Below, one piece after another: positions 11,591-20,234 of a stretch of 64,000 nt of DNA. The position numbers and the translations under genes were made by a program. The notes under the pieces were generated by a model. That model did not search any database and was not told where the DNA came from. It worked only from the letters and a program-made list of their open reading frames with translations. Each line of letters begins with the position of its first letter. Position 1 is the stretch's first letter. Source of the stretch: Bacteroidota bacterium (GTDB taxonomy: Bacteria; Bacteroidota; Bacteroidia; Cytophagales; Cyclobacteriaceae). Where the stretch lies: assembly GCA_018267215.1 (NCBI GenBank), contig JAFDYX010000029.1, positions 124,001-188,000 on the forward strand, read 5' to 3'.

Positions 11591-12340
11591 ATGCGCAGTT
11601 TAATTTTATTTTTTCTCATAGTGATTAGCTTTTCGCTCCACTCGCAAAGCAAAAAAGAATTGCAACAAAAAGTCGCTAACCAAGAGCAACAAATCAAACA
11701 GCTTCAGGCTGAGATAGAAGAATTGAAAAAGCCTAAAGAAGTGGATCTGTCTTCCGAAAAGAAAAAGGCCGGCTATGGAATGGGCGTATTGTTTTCTACC
11801 AACGTCCGAAGCCAGGGAGGCGACTCGCTCGACCGTGACGCCATCATTGCCGCCATTCAAGATGTGTACAACGGCAAACCTTTAAAGATAGACCAGCAAC
11901 AATGTATGACTACCGTGCAAACATACATGACGGCAGCTGCCGAGAAAAAAAATGCGAGAGCCAAAGAAGCCGGAAATATCTTTTTGGAAAACAACAAAAA
12001 AAATGAAGGCGTAGTAGTGCTGCCCAGCGGCCTGCAGTATAAAATCATAACACAAGGTGCAGGAAAATCTCCAAACTCTACCGCCAATGTTACCGTGCAT
12101 TATACCGGTACACTGACTGATGGAACAGAGTTTGACAGCTCTCATAAGCGCGGCCAGCCGGCCAACTTCGGTGTGAACCAGGTAATACCGGGCTGGACTG
12201 AAGCCTTACAGTTGATGAAGGAAGGCGACAAGTGGATGCTGTATGTTCCTTACAACCTGGCGTATGGCGAACGCGGAGGAGGTGCTATCCCTCCATTTGC
12301 CACATTGGTTTTTGAAGTGGAACTGATCAAAGTAAATTAA
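11591..12340 (+). CDS. FKBP-type peptidyl-prolyl cis-trans isomerase, secreted (Mip/FkpA-like)
   Basis: A 249-residue exported protein. It has signal peptide MRSLILFFLIVISFSLHSQ, a coiled-coil stretch (QQKVANQEQQIKQLQAEIEEL), an FKBP N-terminal dimerisation domain (SYGMG-like AGYGMGVLFSTNV to about residue 130) and a C-terminal FKBP domain. Active-site positions are all present: Y in VHYTGTL, FD in GTEFDSS, VIPGW, LAYG and the final FEVEL. It should catalyse proline isomerisation in the periplasm. Its stop codon lies at the very start of the repeat region downstream. Confidence 0.93.
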   Translation: MRSLILFFLIVISFSLHSQSKKELQQKVANQEQQIKQLQAEIEELKKPKEVDLSSEKKKAGYGMGVLFSTNVRSQGGDSLDRDAIIAAIQDVYNGKPLKIDQQQCMTTVQTYMTAAAEKKNARAKEAGNIFLENNKKNEGVVVLPSGLQYKIITQGAGKSPNSTANVTVHYTGTLTDGTEFDSSHKRGQPANFGVNQVIPGWTEALQLMKEGDKWMLYVPYNLAYGERGGGAIPPFATLVFEVELIKVN

Positions 12341-12377
12341 AAAATCAGGCTAAGTTTTGCGGTGGGTTGTACTCATA

Positions 12378-12411
12378 CTGTTCGACATGCGCTCGCTAAC
12401 ATGTCGAACAG
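12378..12411. repeat. REP-like palindrome, copy 1 (segment A)
   Basis: CTGTTCGACAT and ATGTCGAACAG form a perfect 11-bp stem around a 12-base loop (GCGCTCGCTAAC). It is the first of four copies of this palindrome within 720 bases. Confidence 0.85.
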
Positions 12412-12422
12412 CAAGAAAAGAT

Positions 12423-12533
12423 CTCACCCCGGAAAGTCCATCTGTTAAACGCAGTTTACTGCCACCCTTCTCCAATGGAGAGGGGCATAGATAACTTTCG
12501 ATAACCGTAAAAAAGATTTTGGGGTGAGGTGGG
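12423..12533. repeat. MITE-like segment B, copy 1
   Basis: A segment of about 110 bases bounded by imperfect inverted ends, ATCTCACCCC and GGGGTGAGGT (9 of 10 positions pair), with an inner hairpin around CTCCAATGGAG. Copy 2 lies about 417 bases downstream. Inverted ends plus inner palindromes suggest a non-autonomous element or an RNA structure. No ORF. Confidence 0.6.
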
Positions 12534-12554
12534 AAGACATGACGGGCGCTTAAA

Positions 12555-12574
12555 AATACTCCTTTAGGAGTATT
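12555..12574. repeat. Short perfect hairpin AATACTCC/GGAGTATT
   Basis: An 8-bp perfect stem around loop TTTA lies between segments B and C of the first repeat unit. It has no counterpart in the second unit. Confidence 0.65.
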
Positions 12575-12677
12575 GACTCTCCTTATTCATCCGGCCAACT
12601 TTATAGCAGTATTGCAGCAGGTGATGATGAAAAGTACTGAGGTCAGGGTAGGCATTACAAATGCCTTTTTATTTGTC

Positions 12678-12708
12678 GTTCGACATGCGCTTCACTAACA
12701 TGTCGAAC
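12678..12708. repeat. REP-like palindrome, copy 2 (segment C)
   Basis: GTTCGACAT and ATGTCGAAC pair over 9 bp around a 13-base loop. Same core as the palindrome in segment A; the loop has one substitution (TTCACT for TTCGCT). Confidence 0.8.
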
Positions 12709-12755
12709 AGCAAACTTAAAAAATCAGGCTAAGTTTTGTAGTGGGTTGTACTCAT

Positions 12756-12792
12756 GCTGTTCGACATGCGCTTCGCTAACATGTCGAACAGC
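12756..12792. repeat. REP-like palindrome, copy 3 (segment A)
   Basis: GCTGTTCGACAT and ATGTCGAACAGC form a perfect 12-bp stem around a 13-base loop, the longest of the four copies. Confidence 0.85.
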
Positions 12793-12800
12793 AAGAATTA

Positions 12801-12821
12801 TTGTTGGTCGCTGACCAACAA
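12801..12821. repeat. Perfect hairpin TTGTTGGTC/GACCAACAA
   Basis: A 9-bp stem around a 3-base loop, placed between segments A and B of the second repeat unit and absent from the first. It looks like a separate short palindromic insertion. Confidence 0.7.
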
Positions 12822-12839
12822 CCTGAGGCACTTAAAGAC

Positions 12840-12959
12840 CTCACCCCGGAAAGTCCATCTGTTAAACGCAGTTTACTGCCACCCCTCTCCACTGGAGAGG
12901 GGTATTGATAACTTTTGATAACTTTTGATAACAGTAAAAAAAAATTGGGGAGAGGTAGA
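12840..12959. repeat. MITE-like segment B, copy 2
   Basis: Second copy of segment B. The inner hairpin is perfect here: CCCCTCTCC, loop ACT, GGAGAGGGG (12882-12902). A GATAACTTTT motif has been duplicated inside it, and the right end reads GGGGAGAGGT instead of GGGGTGAGGT. Confidence 0.6.
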
Positions 12960-13059
12960 GGAGGAGGGTATCTGTATATTGGCACAAGCGTGATGCTTGC
13001 GCCAGATTGAGCTGCGCCTGAGTTGTTAGGGTAGGCATTACAAATGCTATTTTTTTGTC

Positions 13060-13090
13060 GTTCGATATGCGCTTCGCTAACATGTCGAAC
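13060..13090. repeat. REP-like palindrome, copy 4 (segment C)
   Basis: GTTCGATAT and ATGTCGAAC pair over 9 bp with one G-T wobble. It is the most diverged of the four copies. Confidence 0.75.
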
Positions 13091-13136
13091 AGCACATTAA
13101 AAATAGATGCAGTGAATCAGGCCAACCTGATCAGTA

Positions 13137-13195: not shown

Positions 13196-16100
13196 TTAAG
13201 CGACTGCTTTCACTTTTTCTTTCTCCGTTTCCGGTGATTTCACCCGGTCGAAATCAAGTACGATAGGCGAAGCAATGAAGATGGATGAGTACGTGCCGAT
13301 GATCATACCCACCACCAAGGCAAACGAGAATCCACGCAATACTTCCCCTCCAAATATCAACAGCACCACCACTACCATCAATACAGTTCCTGAGGTAATC
13401 AGCGTGCGGCTCAGCGTATTATTGATAGCATCGTTAAACAATTTCGGATGGTCGTGGTTAGCTCCGAAACTCAGGTATTCCCTGATCCGGTCGAAGATAA
13501 TCACCGTGTCGTTGATGGAGTAACCGATGATGGTGAGCAAGGCGGCCACAAAAATCTGATCAATTTCAAAAGACAACCCAAAGGCATGGGCAATACCAAA
13601 TGCGGCCACCACGAAGAGGGCATCGTGTGCTGTAGCGATGATGGCGCCTGTGCTGAACTGCCACTTCTTGAAGCGTATCAAAATCCAGATAAAAATAGCA
13701 ATGAGCGAATAAATGCTGGCCTTCAGGGCAGAGTGCTTAATATCGTCTGCAATGGTGGGGCTTACTTTCAGCGAACTGGAAACTGTAAAATGCTGGTTGT
13801 CTAATTGGGTGTCGTTGGCAGAGTGTTTCAATCCACTGAATTTTTCTACGGCAGCAATCAGAGCCTCGCGCACATGGTCGTCAGCTCCGTCCGATTCATC
13901 GTCTATCAGGTAAGAGGTAGTTACACGCATGTGGTCATCGCTTCCATAATTTTTTACTTCCGTGCTGGAGTTTTTAAAGCTTTCATCCAAGGCTATTTTC
14001 ATGTCGGTAGCTACCACTGGTTTACTGAACGACACTACATACGAGCGGCCTCCCTTGAAGTCCACGCCCATGTTCAATCCCTGAAATGCAATGATGACGA
14101 AACCGATGACGATGATAGAACCTGAGAAGGCGTATGCTTTATATCTGTTGCCGATGAAATTAAATTGCCCACGTTTGCGTATCACATTAGCCAAAGGCGA
14201 CTCGAATGAAAAATTGGCATCATCTCCTTTTCGCACAAACCATTCTACAATGACGCGCGAAATGTACACAGCCGAAAAGAATGAGGTAACAATACCGATC
14301 ATCAACACGATGGCAAATCCTTTCAACGGCCCTTGTCCGAAAATAAACAAGAACATACCCGTCAAGAATGTAGTTAAGTTCGAGTCGAAGATGGTAGCAA
14401 ATGCGCGCTCATAACCTTTTTTGATGGCATCGCGCAATCGTCTGCCTGCTTTCAATTCTTCTTTGACACGTTCATAAATCACCACGTTGGCATCCACGGC
14501 CATAGCCATGGTGAGTACGATACCGGCCATACCGGGCAGTGTCAGCGCGGCATTGTATTGTGCTAAAATTCCAAGAATAAAAAAGATGTTGAACAGCAAC
14601 GCTATGTTGGCTACCCAACCGCCTTTAGAGTAGTAGGCGATCATAAAGATGATGATCAATCCCAGACCGCAGGCCATAGAAATTAAACCCTGGTTTTGGG
14701 CGATCTTACCTAATGAAGGGCCGACAATGGCTTGCTCTACAATGCGGGTAGGGGCGGGCAGCGAACCGGCTTTTAATACCAGCGCCAAGTCTTTGGCTTC
14801 TTCGGGTGTGAACGAACCTGTTATTTGCGAGTTGCCATTGGGGATTTCGCCTTGCACGGTGGGCGCAGTATAAACATAATCGTCAAGTAAAATAGCAATG
14901 CGTCCTTGCGGCTGCTTGGAAGAAGCGGCTGCCGTAATCTTCGCCCACTTCTGCGCGCCTGTTACGTTCATGGTCATGCTGACAGACGGCCGGCTGTATT
15001 GATCGAAGTCGGAGCGGGCATCTGTAATCACTTCACCTGTCAGCAACGGCTTTGCCCCGCGTCCTAAATTGATGAAGTTCAATTTAATGTCTTCTACTCC
15101 GGGTGTTATGTCTGGGTCAGCTTTTACATCCCAACGCCAGCCAACGGTGCGCGGCATCAGGGTGCGTACTTCATTGCGCTTGAAGATGGCATTGATGGTA
15201 GCCGTGTCTTTGGTGGCATACATGAACGAACCTTGCTGTGTCATCAGCGCAAAGAGCGGTGAAGAGGTGGCAGACCGCAAGGAGTCAAGCGAGCTCTTAG
15301 CCTTGCTGCTGTCTGTGGCAACCTTTGCCAATTGTTTTTCCAACGCAGATTTTGTGGTATCAGTTTTGGCTACTTCTTTTGTTTCGGTTTTCAGTTGTTT
15401 GTTGTTAGTCGGTAGTGTTGTAGCGGCCTTCAGAGTTTGTTCTTTTACCAGAAGCTGGTTGATAGCCACTAATGCTTGACTTACCTGCGGATCGTAGGGC
15501 TCAACAATTTCCCAAAACTCAAGGCGGGCAACTCCTTGCAATAATTTCCTTACCCGTTGTGGGTTATCGGCACCGGGTATTTCGATTTGAATACGTCCCG
15601 AACCGGCCAACCGCTGGATGTTTGGCTGCGAAGTGCCAAACTGGTCAATACGTGTTTTTAAGATAGTGTAAGAACGGTCAATGGAGTTGTTGATTTCTTT
15701 GTTCAAGAACTTCAAAACTTTGTCATCGCTATCCGAAAGGTTGATGTCTTTATTGGCCGTAGAGGTAAAGAACGGAGCCAGTGTTTTGCCGGGGTTTGAT
15801 TCTTTAAAGGCATTGTAAAATAATGTGGTGAAATTGCCATTGCTTTTCTTTTGCAAGTCGCTTGCTTTTTGCAAAGCGGCCACAAAAGCCGGTTCCTGAT
15901 TGTTTCCGCTCAGACTGCGCACGATATCTACAGGCGAAATTTCTAACACTACGTGCATGCCGCCCTGTAAGTCGAGACCCAAGCTCAGTTCGTTGTCTTT
16001 TACTTCTTTGTAGGTGTATTGAGCACCGAATAAATTATATACCGGTTTGTTCCACATCGAATCTAAATAGGACTGTTTCTTATCCAGATCAACTGACCCT

Positions 16101-16228
16101 TGTTTGTCGGTGGCATGATCGGTTGCCTGCTGTTGAATCTTCCGGCTCACAAGCGTGAACGACAGAAAATATAAACACAAGGCGGTAATGACGATGGTGA
16201 GTACAATGACGACTCCTTTGTTGCGCAT
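13196..16228 (-). CDS. secDF: Fused protein translocase subunit SecDF
   Basis: A 1010-residue fusion of SecD (about 1-640) and SecF (about 700-1010), the proton-driven inner-membrane partner of SecYEG that helps pull proteins across. SecD shows the N-terminal span, the LGLDLQGGMHVVLEI motif, a long periplasmic P1 region and the membrane block ending LTMAMAVDANVVIYERVKEE. SecF shows GVDFKGGRSYVVSF and TIIGYSINDTVIIFDRIRE. Fused SecDF is the rule in Bacteroidota. The P1 region includes a lysine-, threonine- and serine-rich insertion around residues 265-320. A terminator follows the stop. Confidence 0.97.
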   Translation of the reverse strand: MRNKGVVIVLTIVITALCLYFLSFTLVSRKIQQQATDHATDKQGSVDLDKKQSYLDSMWNKPVYNLFGAQYTYKEVKDNELSLGLDLQGGMHVVLEISPVDIVRSLSGNNQEPAFVAALQKASDLQKKSNGNFTTLFYNAFKESNPGKTLAPFFTSTANKDINLSDSDDKVLKFLNKEINNSIDRSYTILKTRIDQFGTSQPNIQRLAGSGRIQIEIPGADNPQRVRKLLQGVARLEFWEIVEPYDPQVSQALVAINQLLVKEQTLKAATTLPTNNKQLKTETKEVAKTDTTKSALEKQLAKVATDSSKAKSSLDSLRSATSSPLFALMTQQGSFMYATKDTATINAIFKRNEVRTLMPRTVGWRWDVKADPDITPGVEDIKLNFINLGRGAKPLLTGEVITDARSDFDQYSRPSVSMTMNVTGAQKWAKITAAASSKQPQGRIAILLDDYVYTAPTVQGEIPNGNSQITGSFTPEEAKDLALVLKAGSLPAPTRIVEQAIVGPSLGKIAQNQGLISMACGLGLIIIFMIAYYSKGGWVANIALLFNIFFILGILAQYNAALTLPGMAGIVLTMAMAVDANVVIYERVKEELKAGRRLRDAIKKGYERAFATIFDSNLTTFLTGMFLFIFGQGPLKGFAIVLMIGIVTSFFSAVYISRVIVEWFVRKGDDANFSFESPLANVIRKRGQFNFIGNRYKAYAFSGSIIVIGFVIIAFQGLNMGVDFKGGRSYVVSFSKPVVATDMKIALDESFKNSSTEVKNYGSDDHMRVTTSYLIDDESDGADDHVREALIAAVEKFSGLKHSANDTQLDNQHFTVSSSLKVSPTIADDIKHSALKASIYSLIAIFIWILIRFKKWQFSTGAIIATAHDALFVVAAFGIAHAFGLSFEIDQIFVAALLTIIGYSINDTVIIFDRIREYLSFGANHDHPKLFNDAINNTLSRTLITSGTVLMVVVVLLIFGGEVLRGFSFALVVGMIIGTYSSIFIASPIVLDFDRVKSPETEKEKVKAVA

Positions 16229-16323: not shown

Positions 16324-16656
16324 TTACGGTGCGTTGGGCGAGATGATAACCCTGAACAGTGTTTTAAAAAAACGGATCGTATTTTTTTCGATGAAAACGA
16401 TTATTTCATTCTTGTGTTCATCGCTAACCAATTCTTTTACAACAACGGCATCCTGATCGTTAACAATGCCCGTTTGGCCTTGCGAAGCCACTTCGGTAGG
16501 AGCCTGAATAGTTACTTCCGATTTGTCTTTATTTTTTTTAGGCTGTTGGGCTGCCTGATCAGAATTTTGGTAAAGCGAATGCGAAAGCAAAATCACCAAC
16601 ACGGCACACAGCCCGATGGCAAGGAGAAAAACCCGTTGAAGAGATTTTGTTTTCAT
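16324..16656 (-). CDS. Small single-span membrane protein, hypothetical
   Basis: A 110-residue protein starting MKTKSLQRVFLLAIGLCAVL, with one hydrophobic N-terminal segment (about 8-27) and a soluble remainder rich in K, Q and D. I do not recognise a family. The inner ATG was chosen because the segment before it would bury the membrane helix behind a basic leader. It lies 95 bases upstream of secDF on the same strand and may share its transcript. Confidence 0.55.
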   Translation of the reverse strand: MKTKSLQRVFLLAIGLCAVLVILLSHSLYQNSDQAAQQPKKNKDKSEVTIQAPTEVASQGQTGIVNDQDAVVVKELVSDEHKNEIIVFIEKNTIRFFKTLFRVIISPNAP

Positions 16657-16703
16657 AAAACCTCGCAAAGCTACTAATAACAGTCGGAAATGCAACTTGA
16701 TTT

Positions 16704-16757
16704 TATCAGGCATACTCTTCTATCGGCAAGCAACTGCAAACCAGATTGCGGTCGCCA
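16704..16757 (-). pseudogene. Displaced 3' end of gcvP (relic, attachment-like repeat, copy 1)
   Basis: Read on the minus strand this encodes [17 protein letters not shown] and a stop, the exact C-terminus of GcvP, but it lies about 660 bases beyond the intact gcvP end. The terminal 37 bases are identical to the end of gcvP; the preceding codons give the same residues with different synonymous codons (GAC for GAT, CGC for AGA, CTG for TTA). A stop codon lies six codons upstream of the conserved glycine, so no longer reading frame survives. Confidence 0.85.
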
Positions 16758-16784
16758 TAGTCAAAGCCTTATTACAAGCCATTT

Positions 16785-16815
16785 TTTGCACTTCATGGGC
16801 AAACTTTTAACTTTG
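16785..16815 (+). promoter_or_regulatory. Promoter of the DUF4160/DUF2442 pair
   Basis: TTTG at 16785-16788 and TAACTTTG at 16808-16815 are exactly 19 bases apart. The -7 box ends four bases before the GTG start of the DUF4160 gene, so the mRNA is probably leaderless. Confidence 0.7.
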
Positions 16816-16819
16816 TCAA

Positions 16820-17071
16820 GTGCCTACTATACTGCTTGTAAAGGGATTCCGTTTTTTCTTCTTTTCAGCCGATGGCAATGAACCTGTGCATATTCATGTG
16901 AAGAAAGGTGATGGCGATGGTAAGATTTGGTTGCAACCTGATGTTAGAACGGCCTATATGTTAGACTTTACGGCACAAGAAGAAAGGCAAATCATAGATA
17001 TTGTAACAGAAAAAAGAGACTTGATTATTTTAAAGTGGAATGAATACTTCAAATCAGAGATGGGACTTTGA
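16820..17071 (+). CDS. DUF4160 protein
   Basis: An 83-residue protein with GTG start. It fits DUF4160: N-terminal MPTILLVKGFRFFFFSAD, the central EPVHIHVKKGDG with paired histidines, an acidic KIWLQPD strand and the terminal helix IIDIVTEKRDLIILKWNEYF. DUF4160 genes usually sit next to DUF2442 genes, as here, where the downstream gene overlaps by 32 bases. The pair is often described as toxin-antitoxin-like, but no biochemical role is established and no nuclease motif is visible. It is flanked by duplicated gcvP ends, suggesting acquisition as a cassette. Confidence 0.88.
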   Translation: MPTILLVKGFRFFFFSADGNEPVHIHVKKGDGDGKIWLQPDVRTAYMLDFTAQEERQIIDIVTEKRDLIILKWNEYFKSEMGL

Positions 17072-17351
17072 TCCAATTGATAAAATGATTTTTGAAGATG
17101 GCGTGCGTATCATCGCAGTTTATTTTCATAAAGATATGGATGTCATGCTTATCCTATTAAATAATCGTAGAATTATCGAACGCAATATCAGTATGACCCA
17201 AGCATTAGCCAATGCTTCTGAAAAGCAACTTCAAAATTATACTCTAAGCCGCACCGGAATCCATTGGCCCGATATTGACGAAGACCTCAGTCTCAGAGGT
17301 TTTCTGAAAGAAGAAATGATAAATGCTATCAGCGCTCCTCGCGTTTCATAG
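17040..17351 (+). CDS. DUF2442 protein
   Basis: A 103-residue protein of the DUF2442 family. It has an N-terminal half of short strands (MIFEDGVRIIAVYFHKD, then DVMLILLNNRRII), a helix and the diagnostic tail GIHWPDIDEDLSLRGFL. The start overlaps the DUF4160 gene by 32 bases in another frame, implying translational coupling. The stop is 15 bases from the convergent end of gcvP. Function unknown; possibly the partner or regulator of DUF4160. Confidence 0.88.
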   Translation: MNTSNQRWDFDPIDKMIFEDGVRIIAVYFHKDMDVMLILLNNRRIIERNISMTQALANASEKQLQNYTLSRTGIHWPDIDEDLSLRGFLKEEMINAISAPRVS

Positions 17352-17366
17352 TTGGGGCAAATTCAA

Positions 17367-20234
17367 TCAGGCATACTCTTCTATCGGCAAGCAACTGCAA
17401 ACTAAATTTCTATCGCCATAGGCATTGTCAACGCGGCTTACACTGGGCCAGAATTTAGCTTCTTTTACAAAAGCAAGCGGGTAAGCGGCTTTCTGTCTTG
17501 TGTAGGGGCGTGCCCACTCGTCTGCTGTGATGATGGCTGCCGTGTGCGGAGCATTTTTTAAAACATTATTTTCTTTGTCTGCTTTGCCTTCTTCCACTTC
17601 GCGTATTTCATTTCTGATTTCTGTTAAAGCTTCTACAAAGCGATCTAATTCTTGCTTCGGTTCGCTTTCGGTGGGCTCGATCATCAGCGTGCCGGCAACC
17701 GGAAAAGAAACTGTGGGCGCATGGAATCCATAGTCCATCAACCGCTTGGCGATATCTTCTACTTCGATGCCTGCTTTTTTAAATTCGCGGCAGTCCACAA
17801 TCATTTCGTGTGCGCAGCGGCCGTTCGTTCCGGTGTATAATATTTTATAGTGTGCCTGTAATTTTTCTTTGATGTAGTTGGCGTTTAAGATGGCCAACTG
17901 GGTGGCATTTGTTAATCCTTCTCCGCCCATCATGGCGATGTAGGCATAAGAGATGGCGAGGATGCCGGCACTACCATACGGTGCTGCCGATACGGCATGG
18001 ATTGCTTTTTCGCCTCCGGTTTTCACTACAGCATGCCCGGGCAGAAAAGGTTTCAATTTATCGTTTACACAGATGGGCCCCATACCGGGGCCACCGCCAC
18101 CATGCGGTATGCAAAAAGTTTTGTGCAAGTTAAGATGGCACACATCGGCACCGATATTGGCGGGCGAGGTCAAGCCTACTTGTGCATTCATGTTGGCGCC
18201 ATCCATATAAACCAAGCCGCCATTCCGGTGGATGGTTTCGCAGATATCCACAATAGATTCTTCAAACACGCCATGTGTAGAAGGGTAGGTAACCATCAGG
18301 CAGGCGAGATCATTTTTATGCTGTTCTGCTTTGGCCTTTAAATCGGCCACATCTATTTTCCCTTCTTCATCCGATTTTATAACCAGCACGTTCATGCCTG
18401 CCATGACTGCGCTGGCCGGATTGGTGCCGTGAGCAGATGCCGGGATCAAGGCCACGTTTCGATGGTTGTCGCCACGGCTTTCGTGGTAGGCGCGAATAGT
18501 GAGCAAGCCGGCATATTCGCCTTGTGCTCCGCTGTTGGGTTGTAGGGATACACCTGTGAAGCCGGTAATCTCTTTCAGCCAGTTTTCAAGGTTGGTAATC
18601 AGTTGCTGATAACCTTGAGCCTGATCAGTCGGTGCAAAAGGATGCATGTGCCCCATCTCTGGCCAGGTAACGGGAATCATTTCGGTAGTGGCATTCAGTT
18701 TCATCGTGCACGACCCCAACGAGATCATGGAATGAACCATAGAAAGATCTTTGTTTTCTAAACGCTTGATGTAGCGCAGCATTTCGTGTTCGGAATGATA
18801 CGTGTTGAAAACCGGGTGGGTGAGGTACTGCGATGTTCTAACCAGCGATGATGGCCAGTTGATTTTTAATTTCTCTTGTGCGAGGTTTAGTCCTGGAGAT
18901 TTTTTTGCGACAGACTCAGCCACAACGGAAAGGATATTTTCTACATCTGCTACTGAGGTGGTTTCATCTAAAGAGATGCCCACGGTGCCATCGGCAAAGT
19001 AGCGGAAGTTTATCTCCTGCTTCTCAGCAACCGATTTTAATTTTTTAGGATCGGCAACAATCTTTAAAGTGTCGAAATAATTTTCGTTCTGCTGATTGAT
19101 CTCTATTTTTTTCAAGCCTGCTTCGAGGAGTTGGGCAAGGCCATGAATCCTTCCGGCAATTTTCTTCAAACCTTCCGGCCCGTGATAGACGGCATACATG
19201 CTGGCCATGACAGACAACAAAACCTGAGCCGTGCAAATATTGGAAGTAGCCTTTTCCCTGCGTATGTGTTGCTCGCGGGTTTGCAGCGCCATGCGGTAAG
19301 CCGCGTTGCCCTGCGCATCTTGCGAAATGCCGATAATGCGCCCCGGCATCTGGCGTTTAAACTCATCTTTGGTAGCAAAGAAAGCTGCGTGCGGGCCGCC
19401 ATAGCCCATGGGCACGCCCAATCGTTGCGATGAGCCTACCACCACGTCTGCACCCATTTCACCGGGCGATTTCATCAGCGTCAGTGCCATCAAATCTGTA
19501 CCGACTACCACAAAAACATTTTTTTCGTGTGCCGAGGCAATGAAGGCTGTGTGATCTTTGATGGCTCCATTGTTGTCGGGTGTTTGAATGTAAACACCAA
19601 ACAGGTTAGGGTTGGTAACATCTAATTGAGCGACCGAGCCAATCACCAACTCAACTCCGATAGGGGCTGAGCGCGTCTTTAATAAGTCAATGACTTGCGG
19701 AAAAACATTTTCGTCAACAAAAAATTGATGAGCGTTTTTCTTTTCAGCCTTGCGCGAAGCATATAATAAATGGAGAGCTTCGGCTGCGGCTGTAGCTTCA
19801 TCCAACAGCGAGGCGTTTGCAATCTCCATTCCGGTAAGATCCATCACCATCGTTTGGAAGTTGATGAGTGCTTCCATGCGACCTTGTGCAATTTCTGCTT
19901 GGTATGGCGTGTAGGCGGTGTACCATCCGGGGTTTTCCAGAATGTTCCTTAAAATAACCGGTGGGGTAATACACTGATAATAGCCTGTGCCGATGTACGA
20001 TTTGAAGATTTTGTTTTTCGACATCATCTTCTTGAAATCGTTCAGAAATTCATACTCCGATTGTGCCGGTGGCAAATTCAAAGGCTTCTTCAATCGGATG
20101 GCGGCCGGCACGGTTTGCCCGATCAGGTCATCAATTGACTGCGCACGAACTGCTTTCAGCATTTCGCTTATCTGCGATGGGCTGGGTGCATTGTGCCTGC
20201 TTTCAAATTTCTCGGAGTAGGAGGGATGTATCAT
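17367..20234 (-). CDS. gcvP: Glycine dehydrogenase (decarboxylating), P protein
   Basis: P protein of the glycine cleavage system: decarboxylates glycine on pyridoxal phosphate and passes aminomethyl to the lipoyl H protein. At 955 residues it is the fused alpha-beta form. The N-terminal half has [20 protein letters not shown]; the C-terminal half has the PLP lysine Lys705 in [19 protein letters not shown]. The end is [20 protein letters not shown]. gcvH and gcvT are not in the window. The last 37 bases are repeated about 660 bases downstream, on the far side of the DUF4160/DUF2442 pair, so this end may have been supplied by an inserted cassette. Confidence 0.98.

Follow-up and report, generated by a model that had tools for sequence, protein, structure and literature searches.

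The locus described here raises the question of why the 3' end of gcvP, which encodes glycine dehydrogenase, occurs twice in the genome of a member of the Cyclobacteriaceae (Bacteroidota; assembly GCA_018267215.1), with a pair of small genes lying between the two copies. The window, that is, the whole stretch of DNA that was analyzed, comprises 64,000 nucleotides (contig JAFDYX010000029.1, positions 124,001 to 188,000); its genome is referred to as G000, with other genomes and surveyed loci numbered under the prefixes G and L. The two small genes encode DUF4160 and DUF2442 domains, and an original prediction made from the letters of the window rightly called such a pair known, since passages of two reports (PMC8198452, PMC12724237) describe it as a type II toxin-antitoxin system, namely DhiTA of Dickeya dadantii 3937 and the plasmid module PEM of Thermus thermophilus. 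By homology, the pair of the window is predicted to be a toxin-antitoxin system as well. We lean towards the view that positions 16705–17366 form a small, selfish, integrase-free toxin-antitoxin cassette whose second gcvP end gives the right-hand homology for ordinary recombination. The features of the locus are as follows.

17367..20234, minus strand: gcvP (glycine dehydrogenase), the intact target gene, a reading frame of 955 amino acids (PF02347 and PF21478)
17366..17424, minus strand: copy 1 of the gcvP 3' end, joined to the intact gene; 59-base homology with 90% identity to copy 2
17040..17351, plus strand: DUF2442 gene, putative antitoxin by homology to DhiA and the second PEM gene (PF10387, E 3e-12, 47 bits, cut-off 23.9)
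16820..17071, plus strand: DUF4160 gene with a GTG start, putative toxin by homology to DhiT and the first PEM gene (PF13711, E 3.4e-16, 59.6 bits, cut-off 23)
16785..16815, plus strand: promoter-like site TTTG-N19-TAACTTTG of the pair, a pattern match ending 4 bases before the GTG
16705..16763, minus strand: copy 2, the relic, which is the native gcvP 3' end now displaced; the small gene and secDF come next, in the order seen in empty relatives
16324..16656, minus strand: small gene, native downstream neighbour of gcvP, with a homologue directly after gcvP in G176, G177, G178 and G174
13196..16228, minus strand: secDF, the next native neighbour, with SecD/SecF domains and in the same order as in empty relatives

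The same 37 bases were found at 16705–16741 and at the gcvP end (17366–17402), about 660 bases apart, as had been predicted. This is the longest exact repeat in the local 2.7 kb, where the longest repeats in 200 dinucleotide-block shuffles averaged 10.9 bases and never exceeded 14. A search of the whole genome with its 36-mer form, allowing three mismatches, turned up no further occurrence. The aligned homology runs from −58 to +1 relative to the stop codon (59 bases, 90%), and beyond the 37-mer, on its upstream side, synonymous codon differences leave the peptide YGDRNLV unchanged, again in agreement with the prediction. The pair lies behind the gcvP end at 17367 and is convergent with gcvP; both frames are on the plus strand, with the toxin gene first and an overlap of 32 bases. 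The insert holds nothing besides the pair and the promoter-like site, which bears out the claim that only the two genes and their own promoter separate the copies. The GTG start of the DUF4160 gene matches the start in aligned homologues. The TTTG-N19-TAACTTTG pattern is presumably the Bacteroidota promoter consensus, and in genome G094 a TAAATTTG box lies at the same distance from the start as TAACTTTG does in the window. Both boxes end 4 bases before the start, and the messenger may be leaderless.

The layout at gcvP is not peculiar to gcvP and recurs at other genes in other bacteria. Within the family, DUF4160 matches were obtained in 117 of 390 genomes, and the 70 best-scoring loci were taken (30 and 40, in score order). 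Direct repeats detected by blastn flanked 13 of these 70 loci, against 6/29 ParE loci and 3/110 control positions. A strict scan, in which the last 150 bases of a gene were searched for again behind the same gene (score threshold 60 for the 70 best family loci and 56 for the lower-scoring and other-phyla loci), found 10 of 175 gene ends to be duplicated (10/70 loci), with duplicated gene starts at 1/175. Judged from coordinates, all ten duplicated ends straddle the DUF4160/DUF2442 pair and no duplicated start does. In the control loci (gcvP, gltB and ParE), not one of the 300 gene ends was duplicated (Fisher p 0.0003, with tails that are not independent and gcvP sets that overlap in genomes); for the ParE loci this was 0/36. 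The ten loci represent six target genes, assigned by Pfam.

L068, with L070 and L074 assigned via the same end sequence: dinB (IMS polymerase)
L072 and L071: PLP enzyme
L076 and L075: gltB (glutamate synthase)
L064: CCG protein
L088: recombinase of the phage integrase (tyrosine) family
L151: UDP-sugar dehydrogenase (UDP-glucose/GDP-mannose dehydrogenase)

An order-wide sample of 30 DUF2442 loci contained the layout once (L227, at an FAD oxidoreductase). Among 80 named DUF4160 loci of other genomes, taken as a sample of other phyla, six straddling matches were found, of which L341 was dropped due to low complexity. The five that were kept, with both a DUF4160 and a DUF2442 domain in every insert, came from a Bacteroidetes metagenome-assembled genome (L301), Chlorobiaceae (L321, target ABC transporter), Gallionella (L365, target 2-oxoacid dehydrogenase acyltransferase), a proteobacterium (L366) and Parachlamydiales (L368). 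In L301 (676–2009) the DNA between the gene ends holds the pair and, in addition, two small genes resembling another toxin-antitoxin pair. Duplicated gene ends also lie near the DUF4160 locus in L326, L337 and L344; these do not straddle it and were left uncounted, and are possibly similar inserts.

Within the genus of the window, gcvP was matched in 58 of 62 genomes and its 3' end was inspected in 53 (31 and 22), over downstream lengths that differ between loci (only 117 bases in L092). A second gcvP end was found in two of the 53, G000 and G094. In eight genomes (G000, G094, G176, G177, G178, G174, G161 and G162) gcvP is linked to the small gene. The empty sites that the prediction proposed to look for do exist: in G176, G177, G178 and G174 gcvP is followed directly by the small gene and secDF. 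One other gene lies in between in G161, and approximately 1.7 kb in G162. Since the far copy in the window runs into the same small gene and secDF, the suggestion that it is the old gcvP end was upheld. The gcvP tree placed G094 and G177 as sisters (100/100) with G000 apart, G094 being filled with the same layout as the window and G177 being empty. The sequence that follows the displaced end of G094 is the same as in the empty G177.

A single gcvP insertion may have been inherited vertically and then lost in G177. Against this, the two gcvP ends of G094 are alike over 198 bases (−211 to −13) at 95%, including codons missing from G177, from which it follows that the G094 repeat arose or was homogenized after the split from G177 (dS 0.43 for gcvP). 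An old tandem duplication of gcvP was named in the prediction as a finding that would contradict it, and this was rejected because the homology is confined to the gene's 3' end (−58 to +1 in G000 and −211 to −13 in G094). Between G000 and G094, each cassette gene had a pS of 0.59 (over 111 synonymous sites for the two), compared with 0.76 for gcvP and 0.77 for part of secDF; the Fisher p of 0.0003 for the lower cassette values is approximate, as site counts were rounded.

The junctions follow a common pattern. Direct repeats of tens to hundreds of base pairs flank the inserts and are single in empty alleles, and most toxin-antitoxin inserts measure approximately 500 to 830 bases. Repeat starts lie 39 to 381 bases ahead of the stop codon. 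Of 22 inserts (straddling the pair or located at dinB), 20 have an alignment end within −20 to +25 of the stop; the other two are L088 (−85) and L151 (−132), in which a second aligned piece reaches the stop. L075, with an internal gap in its relic, was counted as reaching it, the alignment itself ending at −117. Three targets are filled in more than one genome, and at each of them the right junctions agree within 6 bases, with relic starts at −151, −151 and −157 for dinB (three genomes), −132 for the PLP enzyme (two) and −379 and −381 for gltB (two), and insert orientation is constant per target. When nine loci were set against empty relatives, collinearity identified the far copy as the native end in eight. 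This was seen for G345 against empty G328 (858 bp collinear from the relic onward, 82%) and for G250 against G230 (888 bp, 88%), as well as for G295 and G340 against G359, G184 against G155, G133 against G238 and G094 against G177; for G000 it was seen as gene order only.

Evidence for transfer was obtained by comparing the divergence of cassette and host gene between filled genomes, the cassette being the less diverged in three of five genome pairs. For the gltB pair, 4/604 differences were counted in the cassette against 30/521 in the gene (p 5e-7); for the PLP enzyme, 18/481 against 60/857 (p 0.015, uncorrected for five tests); and for dinB of G295 and G340, 40/514 against 136/893 (p 4e-5). 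At the PLP enzyme gene, homology between filled G250 and filled G121 ends at the relic end, and the downstream DNA differs. The filled genomes are nested among empty close relatives. The layout and the transfer of the cassette are supported.

The prediction had also raised the possibility of other inserts at the same place, and this was seen at the dinB 3' end in another genus, which takes two kinds of insert. Among 30 dinB loci of genus g82, three carry the toxin-antitoxin insert, four (G319, G332, G216 and G373) a different insert, and 23 none within the flank. The different insert is likewise closed by a dinB relic (L264, L266, L279 and L280) and comprises two genes, encoding a small membrane protein and a lipoprotein-like protein of approximately 210–250 amino acids; no Pfam match above the cut-off was obtained for four long or small frames and relatives of G264. 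Relic starts vary between inserts at the same dinB end (−151/−157, −126, −105, −93 and −61), the edge being constant among the three toxin-antitoxin inserts and another for the second cargo, where decay could move it.

These observations suggest how such a unit could spread. Copy 1 keeps gcvP intact, and copy 2, the native end, joins the native downstream DNA. If the pair merely lay behind a gene, a move into a species whose downstream DNA is different would leave it with homology to the recipient on a single side. The other side would come from a second copy of the gene end, so that both homology arms derive from one gene and placement would be possible whatever lies downstream in the recipient. 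DNA consisting of gene end, cassette and gene end could then enter the orthologous gene of a related species by ordinary homologous recombination (RecA), either as a linear fragment with a double crossover or as a circle with one crossover. Recombination between the copies would give clean loss of the cassette, against which the activity of the toxin would select. We infer the RecA route, the clean loss and post-segregational killing from this arrangement. The proposal covers spread to orthologous genes, with first arrival at a new gene and the origin of the duplication lying outside it. It predicts a native relic, a constant right junction, a constant orientation and discordance between cassette and gene, all of which were seen to the extent given above. 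The prediction had spoken of a passenger cassette, a description that was not retained, as the DUF4160/DUF2442 pair itself looks like the mobile unit. It is possible, and is put forward tentatively, that there is a general class of integrase-free two-gene toxin-antidote cassettes using the end of the target gene as a portable homology arm and delivered by RecA to the same gene elsewhere with the gene kept intact; the second dinB cargo would be included.

A number of other features were recorded. The longest frame of the small gene downstream of gcvP reaches 16713, with an ATG inside the gcvP relic, and is likely a gene-calling trap, relatives starting at 16656. At 12334–13103 of the window, intergenic repeats, both direct and inverted, lie clustered, with the core AACATGTCGAACAGCA present several times. 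A second DUF4160/DUF2442 pair of G000 (contig C6, L393 2695–3168) has a DUF4160 frame reading 55 amino acids only and no duplicated gene end. Some ParE genes (L173, L179 and L181) are flanked by long direct repeats of non-coding DNA, a few of which resemble integron-type sites. No close plasmid relative of 16600–17500 was found by blastn, and the PADLOC defence-system models gave no match among five proteins. Solved structures were tried as a guide and not used, the matches being weak (2x8n, E 0.027 for DUF2442; 6j8l, E 0.042 for the DUF4160 profile).

Several observations weigh against the proposal of a self-spreading cassette. No circle, excision or transfer was observed. The layout occurs in only 10/70 of the best-scoring family loci and in none of 19 lower-scoring ones (0/66 ends, with 2/64 duplicated starts; L396 was omitted as a repeat of L153), so that most DUF4160 pairs do without it. 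Nine of the ten family loci with the layout are among the 30 best Pfam scores, and it may therefore belong to some subfamilies only. In the sample from other phyla, duplicated gene starts straddle the pair twice (L352 and L361), and for this reason the bias towards 3' ends is not significant there. Flanking repeats occur at ParE loci too (6/29), those inspected appearing intergenic or repetitive. The relic starts of G000 (−58) and G094 (−211) are not visibly common, and the relic of G121 is followed by DNA unlike that of its three empty congeners. The dinB pairs G295/G345 and G340/G345 show no excess cassette similarity; such equal divergence of cassette and gene fits the rather doubtful alternative that each locus represents one old insertion with a long, variable target duplication, subsequently only inherited or lost, the second copy having no role in spread. 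Long direct repeats absent from empty sites and varying in length from 39 to 381 bases would be expected of such an event, one junction and one orientation per target fit a single founding event each, and there is a precedent in passages on restriction-modification genes (PMC3874152, PMC1643837, PMC3031569). Yet the lower cassette divergence in three of the five pairs speaks against it, repeated losses would be required to explain filled genomes nested among empty relatives, and a random duplication need not stop at a stop codon, near which the alignment ends in nearly all cases.

Integrative elements that replace the 3' ends of protein genes, as at icd of Escherichia coli, leave behind a restored end that differs synonymously, the old end being displaced to the far side. 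As this is what the loci display, the repeats could be attL and attR of element remnants from which all but the addiction pair was deleted, or which are served by an integrase in trans; the target of L088 is itself a tyrosine recombinase gene. We regard such an origin as improbable, and the remnant of a larger integrase-type element suggested in the original prediction was not sustained, since many unrelated genes carry the same two-gene unit, the copies enclose no integrase, and the repeat length at a single dinB end varies with the cargo. The claim that no integrase is present was substantiated, the insert consisting of the pair only and PF00589 giving no match on the window's 238-kb contig (C21), in a search that did not extend to serine recombinases and transposases. 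The four tyrosine recombinase matches of the genome all lie on other contigs. Slippage or template switching can make duplications of the size seen at gcvP, and the second copy might have nothing to do with the pair, being a chance local duplication or a product of misassembly; with the same layout in independent genomes (L004 and the other survey loci) and no duplicated end among the 300 controls, this is scarcely credible. The cassette carrying its own right-hand homology arm remains the reading that we prefer. If true, it answers for one widespread pair the old open question of how toxin-antitoxin pairs in chromosomes can move when no known mobile element is involved, and predicts RecA dependence and clean loss. 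It also provides a plain signature searchable in any genome, namely a small gene pair followed by a repeat of the end of the gene before it.

The arrangement was said in the prediction to be undescribed, and no report of it for a toxin-antitoxin pair was found in the open-licence literature. The pair of the window resembles DhiTA and PEM in its two domains, in having the toxin gene first and in its adjacent or overlapping genes; the passages on those systems differ in making no mention of duplicated ends of neighbouring genes. According to these passages (PMC8198452, PMC12724237), toxicity and a plasmid-stabilizing effect belong to this type of pair: deletion of the DUF2442 gene of the Thermus module gave no transformants and deletion of the DUF4160 gene did, and overproduction of DhiT inhibited growth in Dickeya, for which a single ancestral acquisition within the genus was inferred by the authors. 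The 3'-end integrative elements share with the present loci an incoming end that restores the gene, synonymous differences and an old end on the far side; the cassettes differ in being units without an integrase, in having many unrelated targets and in a repeat start that varies at one target. Insertion with long target duplication is recorded for restriction-modification genes in passages quoting earlier work (PMC3874152, PMC1643837, PMC3031569, quoting Nobusato et al., 2000; Furuta et al., 2010). As described there, those insertions are similar in being small addiction-type units without a transposase, flanked by direct repeats of approximately 100 bp, of which the empty allele has one copy only. 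The cassettes described here differ in their DUF4160/DUF2442 toxin-antitoxin cargo, in repeats that are the ends of coding genes near the stop codon, and in that several species carry an insert at the same target and show excess similarity of the cassette. Long target duplication was already known for restriction-modification genes, and what appears to be new here is a toxin-antitoxin cargo between the copies of a gene end.

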